Source: Enterobacter kobei (GTDB taxonomy: Bacteria > Pseudomonadota > Gammaproteobacteria > Enterobacterales > Enterobacteriaceae). Taken from it: 64,000 nt of DNA. The notes under the pieces were generated by a model, which was given only the letters and a program-made list of their open reading frames with translations, did no database searches and was not told where the DNA came from. A program made the translations under genes and the position numbers. Below, piece by piece: positions 16,678 to 50,051 of this stretch. Within the stretch, counting starts at the first letter, position 1. Each line of letters opens with the position of its first letter. The DNA lies in the NCBI RefSeq assembly GCF_001729765.1, contig NZ_CP017181.1, forward strand, positions 1,860,001 to 1,924,000. Reading direction: 5' to 3'.

Positions 16678-16689
16678 TTCCTCTTTGAC
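16678..16689 (-). promoter_or_regulatory. Predicted ChiX small-RNA pairing site over the chitinase ribosome binding site
   Basis: The leader reads GTCAAAGAGGAA, 12 nt that are perfectly complementary to the ChiX seed UUCCUCUUUGAC as I recall it. The stretch includes the AGAGGA ribosome site six to eleven bases before the ATG. ChiX represses chiP by the same kind of pairing. Extension to this chitinase is inference. Confidence 0.6.
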
Positions 16690-16701
16690 TTAATAAAATA
16701 A

Positions 16702-16723
16702 CCACGCCACAGAAAAGGCGTGG
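16702..16723 (-). promoter_or_regulatory. Hairpin in the chitinase leader
   Basis: CCACGCC and GGCGTGG pair around an eight-base loop. On the minus strand the hairpin is followed by TTATTTTATTAAG, which leads straight into the ChiX-like site. It may be a 5' stabiliser or an early terminator. Confidence 0.5.
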
Positions 16724-16803
16724 CGAAAAAACAACCTGACGAGAATAGCATTGCCGCTTCGCTGAGGATGCGAGGGAGTTCACTTTATGGGGATTGGAGA
16801 AGA

Positions 16804-44825: not shown

Positions 44826-45143
44826 ATGGAAAAGAAACATATCTACCTGTTCTGCTCAGCGGGCATGTCAACCTCACTGCTGGTGTCAAAGATGCGTGCG
44901 CAGGCTGAAAAGTATGAAGTCCCTGTGGTGATTGAAGCGTTTCCAGAAACGCTGGCGGGCGAGAAAGGCCAGAAAGCCGATGTTGTTTTACTGGGGCCAC
45001 AAATCGCCTATATGTTGCCCGAAATACAACGACTGCTACCCAACAAACCGGTCGAAGTGATCGACTCGGGGCTGTATGGCAAGATTGATGGTTTAGGTGT
45101 TCTGAAAGCTGCTGTGGCAGCCATTAAAAAAGCTGCTAATTAA
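44826..45143 (+). CDS. chbB: Chitobiose PTS enzyme IIB ChbB
   Basis: A 105-residue IIB domain of the lactose/chitobiose PTS. The phosphorylated Cys10 lies in [19 protein letters not shown]. It passes phosphate from ChbA to the sugar carried by ChbC. First gene of chbBCARFG. Confidence 0.97.
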
Positions 45144-45154
45144 TTTTTATTTTT

Positions 45155-45166
45155 CCCGTCAAAGAG
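45155..45166 (+). promoter_or_regulatory. ChiX pairing site in the chbB-chbC spacer
   Basis: CCCGTCAAAGAG is complementary to the recalled ChiX sequence CUCUUUGACGGG over 12 nt. In E. coli and Salmonella this spacer is the decoy that removes ChiX when the operon is transcribed. Confidence 0.75.
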
Positions 45167-45184
45167 TTATTTCACACACAATAC

Positions 45185-45222: not shown

Positions 45223-46581
45223 ATGAGTAAAGTCATCGCTTCACTTGAAAAGGTACTCCTTCCTTTTGCTGTTAAAATAGGAAAGCAGCCTCACGTTAAT
45301 GCCATTAAAAACGGCTTTATTAAATTAATGCCGTTGACGCTGGCCGGGGCCATGTTCGTTTTAATTAACAACGTTTTTCTGAGCTTTGGTGAAGGTTCCT
45401 TCTTTTATTCATTAGGCATTCGGTTAGACGCTTCCACAATTGAAACCCTTAATGGTTTTAAAGCCATCGGCGGCAACGTATATAACGGTACGTTAGGTAT
45501 TATGTCGCTGATGGCGCCTTTCTTTATTGGCATGGCACTGGCAGAAGAGCGAAAAGTGGATCCGCTGGCTGCCGGGTTATTATCCGTTGCTGCATTTATG
45601 ACCGTCACGCCTTACAGCGTAGGGGAGGCGTATGCCGTCGGCGCCAACTGGTTGGGTGGGGCGAACATCATCTCCGGTATTGTTATCGGTCTGGTGGTGG
45701 CGGAAATGTTCACCTTTATTATTCGTCGCAACTGGGTTATCCGCTTGCCGGATAGCGTACCGACGTCCGTTTCTCGTTCATTTTCCGCGTTGATTCCGGG
45801 CTTTATTATTCTCTCCATTATGGGGATTATTGCCTGGGCGCTCTCTCACTGGGGCACGAACTTCCACCAGATCATCATGGATTCTATCTCCACGCCGCTG
45901 GCGTCGATGGGTGGTGTGGTCGGTTGGGCGTATGTGATTTTCACCTCTCTGCTGTGGTTCTTCGGCGTACATGGTTCACTGGCACTGGCTGCGCTGGATA
46001 GCGGAATTATGACCCCGTGGGCACTGGAAAACGTGGCACTTTACCAGCAGTACGGCTCCGTTGACGCGGCGCTGGCAGCAGGTAAAACCTTCCATGTGTG
46101 GGCGAAGCCGATGCTTGACTCCTATATCTTCCTGGGTGGTACCGGGGCGACCTTGGGTCTGATCATCGCGGTCTTTATTGTCTCTCGTCGTGCTGACTAT
46201 CGTCAGGTAGCTAAACTGGCGCTGCCATCAGGTATCTTCCAGATTAACGAACCGATTCTGTTTGGCCTGCCAATCATCATGAACCCGGTCATGTTCATTC
46301 CGTTCATCCTGGTTCAACCACTGCTGGCAGCCATCACCCTGACGGCTTACTACATGGGCATTATTCCGCCGGTGACCAACATTGCACCGTGGACCATGCC
46401 AGCGGGGCTGGGCGCGTTCTTCAATACCAACGGTAGCGTCGCGGCCTTCCTGCTGGCGATATTCAACCTCGGGATTGCGACCCTGCTCTACATGCCATTC
46501 GTGGCAATTGCGAACAAAGCTGCCACCATCATTGATGAAGAAGAGAGCGAAGAGGACATTGCCCTCTCACTGAAATTCTAA
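45223..46581 (+). CDS. chbC: Chitobiose PTS enzyme IIC ChbC
   Basis: A 452-residue membrane transporter with about ten helices, [20 protein letters not shown] at the N-terminus. It takes up N,N'-diacetylchitobiose as the 6-phosphate. The sugar-site region [15 protein letters not shown] is conserved. It follows chbB by 79 bp and has a 47-bp gap to chbA. Confidence 0.97.
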
Positions 46582-46628
46582 GATTGACCGACGCGGGGAA
46601 ACCCGCGTCAGCCACAAGGAGCTTAAAC

Positions 46629-46976
46629 ATGTTAGATTTGGATAGTATCGTCGCAGACGACGCCGCAGAGAACGATCTTGAAGAAGTGGTGATGGGGCTT
46701 ATCATCAACTCCGGGCAGGCCCGCAGCCTGGCGTATGCCGCACTGAAGCAGGCCAAGCAGGGTGATTTTGCCGCCGCGAAAACCATGATGGAACAGTCCC
46801 GTACCGCGCTGAACGAAGCGCACCTGGTGCAGACAAAGCTTATTGAAAGCGATCAGGGTGAAGGGAAGATGAAGGTCAGCCTGGTGCTGGTACACGCGCA
46901 GGATCACCTGATGACCTCCATGCTGGCGCGCGAGCTGGTGGCGGAGTTGATTGAGCTTCACGAGAAAATGCACTAA
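46629..46976 (+). CDS. chbA: Chitobiose PTS enzyme IIA ChbA
   Basis: A 115-residue IIA protein of the lactose class, helical, with phosphorylated His89 in [11 protein letters not shown]. The ATG at 46629 has AAGGAG upstream and matches E. coli; the frame back to 46584 is spacer. It transfers phosphate from HPr to ChbB. Confidence 0.96.
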
Positions 46977-46981
46977 GTCGG

Positions 46982-47824
46982 ATGTTGCAGCAGGAGGTCA
47001 GCACGATGGAAATTAAAACCGCACTTGAACAGCAGCTGTTTAATGGCAAAAATTTTCACGTGGTTATCTACAACAAGACGGAGAGCGCCAGTGGTCTGCA
47101 CCAGCATGACTACTACGAGTTCACGATTGTTCTGACCGGCCGCTACTACCAGGAGATCAACGGTAAGCGCGTCCTGCTTGAGCGAGGGGATTTTGTCTTC
47201 CTGCCGATGGGGTCCTATCACCAGAGCTTTTACGAATTCGGTGCAACCCGCATTCTGAATGTCGGCGTCAGCAGGCGCTTCTTTGAAAAGCACTATCTGC
47301 CGCTGGTACCGTTCTGCTTTGTGGCGTCTCAGGTTTATCGCGTGAAAAACGAGTTCATGACCTGGATTGAAACGGTTATTGCCTCGCTTAACTTCCGTGA
47401 AAATGAATTTGACGAGTTTATTGAAACGGTGACTTTCTATGTGATGAACCGGCTGCGTCATCATCGTGAAGAGCAGCAGGTGACGGATGATATTCCACAG
47501 TGGCTGCGCAGCACTGTTGAACTGATGCACGATAAAGCCCAGTTCAGTGACAATGCGCTGGAGAATATGGTTTCCCTGTCGGGAAAATCCCAGGAATATC
47601 TGACCCGCGCGACGCAGCGGTATTATCGTAAAACACCTGTGCAAATTATTAATGACATTCGCATTAACTTTGCCAAAAAACAGCTGGAAATTACTAACTA
47701 CTCGGTCACCGATATTGCTTACGAATCGGGATACAGTAGCCCCAGCCTGTTTATTAAAACGTTTAAGAAATTAACGTCATTCACCCCGAACAGTTACCGC
47801 AAAAGTTTGACGGTAATGAATTAA
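46982..47824 (+). CDS. chbR: AraC-family regulator ChbR
   Basis: A 280-residue dual regulator of chb. The N-terminal cupin half has [18 protein letters not shown]. The C-terminal AraC domain is at about 180-275 ([24 protein letters not shown]). The start at 46982 keeps the same length as E. coli. An alternative ATG at 47006 has the better ribosome site (CAGGAGG) and would give 272 residues. Confidence 0.94.
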
Positions 47825-47934
47825 CTTTCGGCGGTTTTATCCGCCACGAATATTGCTTTAATGGCTTGCCCAAATAGCGGGAAGAGTACGCTATACCTTG
47901 CAGGCGATTAACCTGATACGCAAAGGGAGATATT

Positions 47935-49290
47935 ATGCAAAAGAAATTAAAAGTCGTAACCATTGGTGGCGGCAGCAGCTATACCCCGGAATTACTTGAA
48001 GGTTTTCTGAAACGTTATCATGAATTACCGGTCAGCGAATTATGGCTGGTGGACGTGGAGGAAGGTCAGGAGAAGCTGAATATTATTTTCGACCTGTGCC
48101 AACGCATGGTTGAGAAAGCGGGCGTACCTCTGACCGTGCATAAAACGCTGGATCGTCGACTGGCGCTGAAAGATGCAGATTTCGTAACCACCCAGCTGCG
48201 CGTTGGGCAGTTGAAAGCGCGTGAACTGGACGAGCGTATTCCGTTGAGCCACGGTTATCTCGGTCAGGAAACTAACGGTGCCGGTGGCCTGTTCAAAGGC
48301 CTGCGTACCATTCCGGTTATTTTCGACATCGTTAAAGACGTGGAGGAAATCTGTCCAGACGCGTGGGTGATTAACTTCACTAACCCGGCAGGGATGGTGA
48401 CCGAAGCGGTCTATCGTCATACCGGTTTCAAGCGCTTTATTGGCGTCTGTAATATTCCAGTCGGCATGAAAATGTTTATCCGTGACGTGCTGGAACTGAC
48501 CGATAATGACGATCTCTCTATCGATCTGTTCGGTTTGAACCATATGGTGTTCATTAAAGATGTCATCGTGAACGGAACATCGCGTTTTGCTGAACTGCTG
48601 GACGGGGTCGCCTCGGGTCGTCTGACCGCTGCGTCTGTGAAAAACATCTTTGACCTGCCGTTCAGCGAAGGGCTGATCCGCTCGTTGAATCTGCTGCCGT
48701 GCTCCTACCTGCTTTATTACTTCAAGCAGAAAGAGATGCTGGCCATCGAAATGGGCGAGTATTACAAGGGGGGCGCGCGGGCGCAAATCGTTCAGAAAGT
48801 TGAGAAGCAGCTGTTCGACTTGTATAAAGATCCGAACCTGAACGTCAAGCCGAAAGAGCTTGAGCAGCGCGGCGGGGCCTATTATTCCGATGCGGCGTGT
48901 GAAGTGATCAACGCCATCTACAACGACAAGCAGGCGGAGCACTATGTTAACGTGCCGCACCACGGCCACATCGACAATATCCCGGCTGACTGGGCCGTTG
49001 AGATGACCTGCATTCTGGGACGCGATGGCGCTAAACCGCATCCGCGCATTACTCATTTTGATGACAAAGTTATGGGTCTGATCCACACCATTAAAGGCTT
49101 TGAAGTGGCGGCAAGTCAGGCGGCGCTGAGCGGCGAGCTGAATGACGTGCTTCTGGCACTGAACCTCAGCCCGCTGGTGCATTCCGACCGCGATGCGGAG
49201 CAGCTTGCAGCAGAGATGATCCTGGCGCATGAAAAATGGTTGCCGAACTTCGCCGCCACGATCGAGAAGCTGAAGTTCAAACACCACTGA
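47935..49290 (+). CDS. chbF: 6-phospho-beta-glucosidase ChbF (GH4)
   Basis: A 451-residue glycoside hydrolase family 4 enzyme. It uses NAD and a metal to split mono-deacetylated chitobiose-6-phosphate. The Rossmann start [15 protein letters not shown] and the metal ligands Cys in GVCNIPVGM and His in GLNHMVF are conserved. GGGAGA precedes the ATG. Confidence 0.97.
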
Positions 49291-49301
49291 GAGGACGCAC
49301 A

Positions 49302-50051
49302 ATGGAAAACCTGCTGATCGTTAATGCTGATGATTTTGGCCTCTCGAAAGGTCAGAACTACGGCATTATTGAAGCCTGTCGCCGGGGGGTTGTGACATCC
49401 ACTACGGCACTGGTTAATGGTGAAGCGGTTGAACATGCGGCGCAGCTAAGCCGCGACGTGCCTGAGCTGGGCGTCGGGATGCATTTTGTGCTGACGCTCG
49501 GTATGCCGCTTACGCCAATGCCGGGCCTGACCCGTGACGGACAGTTAGGTAAATGGATTTGGGAACAGGCGGAGCAGGACGCTCTGCCGCTGGAAGAGAT
49601 TGCCCGCGAGCTGGACTGTCAGTTCAACCGCTTTGCTGATCTGTTTGGTGATCTGCCAACACACATCGACAGCCATCACCACGTGCATATGATCCCGGCA
49701 ATTTTCCCGATCGTTGCGGCGTTTGCTCAACGCAAAGGCGTAGCGATGCGCGTGGATCGTGAGGTGCAAGGGTTGCCGGACAGTGCGGTGACAACCACCG
49801 CAGGGTTCAGCAGCGCGTTTTACGGCGAGGCGATCGACGAAGCGCTGTTCCTGAAGGTGCTGGATGATTCTGCAGCCCGGGGAGAAAAGTCACTGGAGGT
49901 CATGGCGCACCCCGCATTTGTCGATAATATCGTGCGCAAGAGCGCGTACTGCTGGCCGCGCCTGGCGGAGCTGGATGTGCTGACGTCGCCGTCGCTGAAA
50001 TACGCGATTGCCGAACGTGGGTATCGGTTGGGGACATTCCGGGATCTGTGA
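49302..50051 (+). CDS. chbG: Chitooligosaccharide deacetylase ChbG
   Basis: A 249-residue YdjC-type carbohydrate deacetylase. NADDFG (8-13) supplies metal ligands and [10 protein letters not shown] the histidines. It removes one acetyl group from chitobiose-6-phosphate so ChbR can be activated and ChbF can act. The ATG at 49302 is used; the longer frame from 49236 lies inside chbF. Last gene of the operon. Confidence 0.96.

Follow-up and report, generated by a model that had tools for sequence, protein, structure and literature searches.

ChiX is described as a repressor of the chitoporin gene chiP (PMC4098024), for which a Rho-dependent step is also reported (PMC7815308), and its hold on chiP is lifted when the small RNA is trapped by the spacer between chbB and chbC (chbBC; PMC4098024). 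The complement in chbBC extends to the ChiX terminator stem (PMC4104026), and the ChiX-chbBC pair has been seen in an in vivo interactome (PMC10703908). In class II pairs, among which ChiX-chiP is counted, the mRNA contacts the rim of Hfq, a surface that binds UA-rich RNA (PMC12262471). Regarding chitinases, the accessible text of a Salmonella study describes control of ChiA by ChiR and makes no mention of sRNA or small RNA (PMC10109510), and a Klebsiella interactome names ChiX, with no chitinase in its main text as available (PMC10907235). Among the open-licence papers surveyed by title and opening of the abstract, none reports a chitinase leader as a pairing partner of the small RNA ChiX, so the claim of novelty is limited to that scope; in some papers the name ChiX is given to a Serratia peptidoglycan hydrolase.

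We analysed a 64,000-nt stretch of the Enterobacter kobei genome (the window), which contains a chitinase gene with a putative ChiX site in its leader. The chitinase mRNA is very probably a direct target of ChiX, silenced like chiP and released via the chb decoy. The presence of a ChiX pairing site in the leader is strongly supported by sequence comparison, and where the site lies, how rare the word is and how well it is conserved all speak clearly for the direct-target reading of this exact observation; repression, Hfq dependence and decoy relief of the chitinase would follow from the known biology of ChiX.

The chitinase gene and the ChiX site in its leader

Table 1 Coordinates of the features discussed, with the evidence on which each is named.
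Feature	Position	Strand	Evidence
ChiD-type GH18 chitinase, 418 aa	15416..16672	minus	Pfam PF00704, 219 bits; NCBIfam NF052619, 885.8 bits
ChiX pairing site GTCAAAGAGGAA over ribosome site	16678..16689	minus	12-nt seed complement and conservation
UA-rich stretch TTATTTTATTAA directly upstream of site	16690..16701	minus	AT content
Terminator-like hairpin	16701..16725	minus	leader alignment, weak covariation
Possible -10 element TATTCT of chitinase promoter	16742..16747	minus	by eye
CRP-like site AGTGAACTCCCTCGCA	16769..16784	minus	8/10 consensus positions
chbB, PTS EIIB of chitobiose operon	44826..45143	plus	ORF; named by place before chbC and E. coli order
ChiX decoy CCCGTCAAAGAGTTA in chbB-chbC spacer	45155..45169	plus	same 15 bases as E. 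coli
chbC, PTS EIIC	45223..46581	plus	ORF; 90% identical to E. coli ChbC
Rest of chb operon, presumably chbA, chbR, chbF, chbG (four ORFs)	46584..50051	plus	E. coli gene order
Second exact ChiX-type site, at GH1 ribosome site	G000:C1:51216-51227 (L175:5217-5228)	minus	exact 12-mer

The chitinase matched the NCBIfam model ChiD_Serratia well above the cut-off of 750 bits, and its N terminus looked signal-peptide-like when judged by eye. The closest chitinases among the matches listed came from Enterobacter, Lelliottia and Silvania records (91-95% identity). The gene is flanked by pncA on one side and by yeaC-msrB-gapA on the other (names read from open reading frames, in agreement with the E. 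coli order and, for pncA, with an isochorismatase domain), and in E. coli K-12 the interval between pncA and yeaC is occupied by ydjE-ydjL, without a chitinase. A second GH18 gene, whose start codon is uncertain, had no comparable ChiX site when the plus strand was scanned over the first 1.6 kb of the locus; the top partial match on that strand covered 9 of 12 letters about 1 kb upstream of the open frame.

On the minus strand the chitinase leader reads ...GGTTATTTTATTAA GTCAAAGAGGAA ATTAT ATG, with the start codon at 16672-16670. The earlier note had described a 12-nt perfect complement of the ChiX seed over the chitinase ribosome site, and this proved exact (16678-16689): it is the only exact copy of the word in the window, it encloses the ribosome site GAGGA (16679-16683), and its 3' end lies 5 nt from the ATG, as in chiP. 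The complement is perfect because the genome's own chiX contains TTCCTCTTTGAC, the exact complement of the leader 12-mer, and the ChiX seed AAATTCCTCTTTGACGGGCC and the leader form a 12-nt perfect duplex. As in a chiP-type target, we thus found chiX in the genome, a contiguous seed complement, coverage of the ribosome site and conservation.

Presence of chiX had been set beforehand as a check on the prediction. The genome carries a single match to the Rfam family sroB (RF00368) at G000:C1:1110066-1110145, scoring 82.4 bits for a gathering score of 44, and the neighbouring frames were read as ybaK and ybaP, in line with the E. coli order. RF01395, considered as the chiX family, was ruled out because it is isrL; RF00368 is the correct one. 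Consistently with the partners named in the earlier note, the genome also encodes ChiP (NCBIfam, 855.4 bits, cut-off 750), whose leader has a 14-nt match to ChiX vs 12 nt for the chitinase, and the chbBC decoy is found elsewhere in the window. In E. coli, the chiP ribosome site is covered by the element seen in the chitinase leader.

The predicted openness of the site was lower in the chitinase leader (mean 0.32 unpaired) than in the own chiP leader (0.47) or that of E. coli chiP (0.52); the site would be mostly paired in this fold, which would speak against easy ChiX pairing. Over 65 chitinase leaders the predicted mean was 0.42, with values above 0.5 in 18.

Rarity and conservation of the site

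Four exact copies of the 12-mer were found in the 4.93-Mb genome, in chiX (antisense to itself), the chiP leader, the chitinase leader and the spacer between an EIIC gene and a GH1 gene; three of them occupy ribosome sites of sugar genes. Simple arithmetic gives a chance expectation of 0.6 copies on both strands, and the reversed control pattern had one exact copy genome-wide. When up to two mismatches were allowed, the window held 8 copies vs a mean of 3.95, a number reached by 1 of 100 shuffles. With one mismatch the word was hardly commoner genome-wide than its reversed control (29 sites vs 23, exact copies counted in), and among 25 one-mismatch genomic sites a contiguous match of at least 10 nt at an ORF start was seen only in L104.

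Raw duplex energy over the whole window was rejected as a discriminator: the chitinase site scored -22.9, and 24 places in the sliding scan scored better, the chbBC decoy among them. Targets were separated when start codons were scored against the 29-nt middle part of ChiX, which is unpaired except for its last two bases. Among 63 ORF starts in the window the chitinase ranked first with 12 nt, ahead of a start with 11 nt but poor energy. For the window and 32 genome stretches combined, 188 starts were scored (the GH1 start counted twice, since two stretches overlap), and at least 12 nt were reached only by chiP (14 nt), GH1 (12 nt) and the chitinase (12 nt); 27 of the 32 stretches had been chosen for exact or near matches, and therefore the bias works against this result. 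Support for the site comes from conservation and from the uninterrupted seed complement at the start codon.

Orthologous loci were taken as the best 80 of 124 chitinase matches, 13 from Serratia and 67 from elsewhere (57 distinct 40-nt leaders). Conservation of the motif beyond AGGA was another check set beforehand, and it extended well past these bases: among the 67 non-Serratia leaders, GTCAAAGAGG was kept in 65, GTCAAAGAGGA in 63 and all 12 bases in 47. With leaders anchored on GAGG, each of the 11 motif columns changed 0-2 times on a 68-leaf tree of the chitinases (GAGG 0; GTCAA, outside the ribosome-pairing part, 0-2 per column). The twelfth base changed 7 times, the three columns beyond it 12-20 times and the 18 columns upstream of the motif 8-23 times each, flank counts that are somewhat inflated by indels because the anchoring is ungapped; third codon positions of the chitinase averaged 14.7 changes on the same tree. 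The motif was found in 0 of 205 leaders of neighbouring genes from the same loci, Serratia included (PncA 40, AnsA 65, YeaC 69, MsrB 31), a count of which 174 are sound, the MsrB set being a weak control owing to its doubtful start. Cedecea and Buttiauxella leaders were very unlike those of Enterobacter outside the ChiX word.

Every one of the 80 genomes that supplied a chitinase locus had chiX over the cut-off (50/50 and 30/30). In 61 chiX loci read (the own locus and those of 60 of the 80 genomes), the seed, sought on either strand, was unchanged in 60, among them L140, a locus cut by a contig end. In L172 (Cedecea colo) one C is missing from the seed (TTCTCTTTGAC), either a real change or a sequencing error, and the chitinase leader of this genome retains the full word. 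An enterobacterial chitinase and chiX were present in L047, a record titled Chryseobacterium, and this assembly is probably mislabelled or mixed.

The match was broken in two of the 67 non-Serratia leaders, L023 (Leclercia) and L052 (Trabulsiella), and the eleventh base was lost in L057 and L065. Because the genome of L052 has an intact chiX seed (L137), the ChiX-chitinase link may be lost there. None of the 13 Serratia leaders contained the motif, despite chiX with an intact seed. The link is therefore not universal. Two further leader variants were observed. In six of the 80 leaders (L044, L045, L048, L051, L053, L067) the match is extended to CCCGTCAAAGAGG, giving 16-17 nt in total; this is how the chbBC decoy begins, and in the ChiX fold drawn here the match extends to the opening bases of the terminator stem. 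In L015, L019, L024, L032, L033 and L038 a partial second copy of GTCA lies just upstream of the site, as would follow from duplication or displacement of the motif.

We also searched 30 genomes (the own genome, 17 others of the genus and 12 from different families within the order) for GTCAAAGAGGA followed by 4-9 bases and ATG. There were 2-4 hits in each of the 18 own-genus genomes and none for the reversed control in these; among the 12 genomes of other families, the pattern matched in one and the control in one. Of 56 pattern places, 30 were classified by comparison with the proteins of the own genome (own chiP and GH1 sites included), as 7 ChiP, 7 ChiD, 11 GH1 and 5 other. The 21-mer GTCAAAGAGGAGTTTCACATG was observed upstream of a 247-aa protein of no recognised kind (L189, L193) and also in G091 and G097, that is, in four genomes of the genus.

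A second phosphotransferase operon with the same site was an unexpected extra, the site being present in all 22 own-genus genomes in which the operon was found. Its order is EIIB-EIIC-GH1-LamB-type porin, with a LacI-type regulator, and the transporter is of the lactose/cellobiose type. Of 40 genomes, 22 had the EIIC protein at an E value of 1e-150 or better, and these were 22 of the 24 own-genus genomes; the spacer word was present in 22 of 22 orthologues, all of the own genus, and absent from two more distant EIIC spacer copies (71-72% identical). The own GH1 gene is seemingly shortened by an insertion-sequence-like frame pair (L175:3357-4054), which we take to be IS1-like from a reading of its proteins; in related genomes GH1 measures 457-462 aa.

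Decoy, leader elements and alternative readings

In the chb operon, CCCGTCAAAGAGTTA complements the ChiX seed and the first bases of the terminator stem. This match ends 53 nt short of the chbC start codon and leaves the ribosome site of chbC uncovered, as expected of a decoy and not of a silenced gene. The picture of ChiX as a master switch that includes uptake is accordingly too strong for the inner membrane, where the chbBC match does not lie over the chbC ribosome site.

An alternative is that the leader site acts mainly as a sponge, the chitinase mRNA titrating ChiX and thereby freeing chiP rather than being silenced. ChiX sponges are known in the chbBC spacer and in the chiP leader fragment ChiZ, as reported (PMC7815308), and the six extended leaders resemble the start of the chbBC decoy and run into the terminator stem. 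The own leader, however, has the 12-nt core only, a dedicated decoy is present in the same genome, and the site covers the ribosome site, so that pairing must compete with ribosomes; we consider a main role as sponge improbable.

Several other elements surround the site. The 12 nt upstream of the motif were rich in A+T (mean 76% over 65 leaders vs 47% for the loci), and TTATTTTATTAA is a possible contact for the Hfq rim face. Further upstream, a hairpin was aligned in a selection of 37 out of 68 leaders, from which near-duplicates and the types found in Cedecea and Buttiauxella had been excluded. Its 7 pairs were formed in 95.7% of cells, two of them with double changes (a count reached by 68 of 500 shuffles), and its covariation score was reached by 6 of 500 shuffles, which ignore relatedness. 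These values are only suggestive of a covarying RNA element, which may serve as a 5' stabiliser, an Hfq contact or an attenuator. A promoter scan found no chitinase promoter on the minus strand. The CRP-like site is weak, because 16 positions in the window reach 8/10; it would fit carbon control of the chitinase, as a weak indication.

The hairpin and the UA-rich stretch are also kept in many orthologues, and conservation by itself does not name the reader of a word, which could have been kept for recognition by an RNA-binding protein or by an RNA other than ChiX. The 11-nt block, however, exactly matches the ChiX seed and equals the E. coli chiP site, and chiX was present in every one of the 80 genomes, which makes another reader very improbable. 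That the leader merely has a good Shine-Dalgarno sequence, with the ChiX match arising by chance, is scarcely credible: AGAGGA is itself a ribosome site, the duplex energy is ordinary and the one-mismatch word exceeds its control by little, but GTCAA changes nearly as little as GAGG, the word is absent from neighbouring genes, 25 of the 30 classified motif places are chiP, ChiD or GH1, and conservation is strong evidence to the contrary, short of some other reason for 65 leaders to have the word in common.

The proposal of the earlier note that the chitinase is a direct ChiX target is thus supported by the presence of chiX, the seed match at the start codon and conservation past AGGA.

Proposed circuit and known systems

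In the circuit that we propose, without chitosugars the abundant, Hfq-dependent ChiX would use its seed UUCCUCUUUGAC to bind GUCAAAGAGGAA, the stretch that covers the chitinase ribosome site; this would block translation and lead to decay of the mRNA, as for chiP. Chitobiose would induce the chb operon, and its chbB-chbC spacer would trap and destroy ChiX. With ChiX trapped by the chb mRNA, the chitinase and the outer-membrane chitoporin would be released together. If this is true, the outer part of chitin use, enzyme as well as pore, is set by one small RNA, and the two are freed together by a decoy that the uptake operon carries.

We advance more tentatively the possibility that ChiX is a wider sugar hub in Enterobacter and its relatives than in E. 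coli, silencing ChiD, the chitoporin and GH1, with the GH1-operon transcript as a second sponge and some Cedecea and Buttiauxella leaders as target and trap. If the GH1-operon transcript also sponges ChiX, another sugar would release the chitinase; if the extended matches of Cedecea and Buttiauxella enter the terminator stem, the chitinase mRNA would be both target and trap in some genomes.

Judged from these comparisons of sequence, the chitinase would be a new addition to the targets of a regulator already known, and ChiX probably also shuts off chitinase production in many E. coli relatives with the gene. Much of the work on ChiX has been done in E. coli K-12, where the link may have been missed because the locus holds other genes in place of this chitinase and the annotated chiA leader lacks the site; that leader, tried as a ChiX target and rejected, has GTCACAAGGGATT and -13.3 kcal/mol. 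In Serratia marcescens 2170, ChiX reportedly regulates the chitin degradation and utilisation system, going by the title of Suzuki et al. 2016. Since the Serratia ChiD leaders examined are without the site, any control of this chitinase there must take another route; a route of chitinase control in Serratia runs through the regulator ChiR. Serratia, in which chitinase and ChiX seed are both shared and the site is missing, would represent a rewiring of the link.

LhrA of Listeria monocytogenes is an RNA unrelated to ChiX, from a Gram-positive bacterium, and we know of no decoy that LhrA-chiA has in common with the ChiX system. As reported, LhrA likewise exerts small-RNA control on the mRNA of a chitinase, chiA (PMC3078929; mentioned in PMC4098024). 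The chbBC decoy has GTCAAAGAG in common with the chitinase site; unlike that site, it begins with CCC, does not lie over a ribosome site and has a complement that reaches the ChiX terminator stem. ChiX-chiP of E. coli and Salmonella shares with the chitinase site the same seed, GTCAAAGAGGA over the ribosome site and a distance to the ATG that agrees within 1-2 bases; its target is a porin, whereas the target predicted here is a chitinase.
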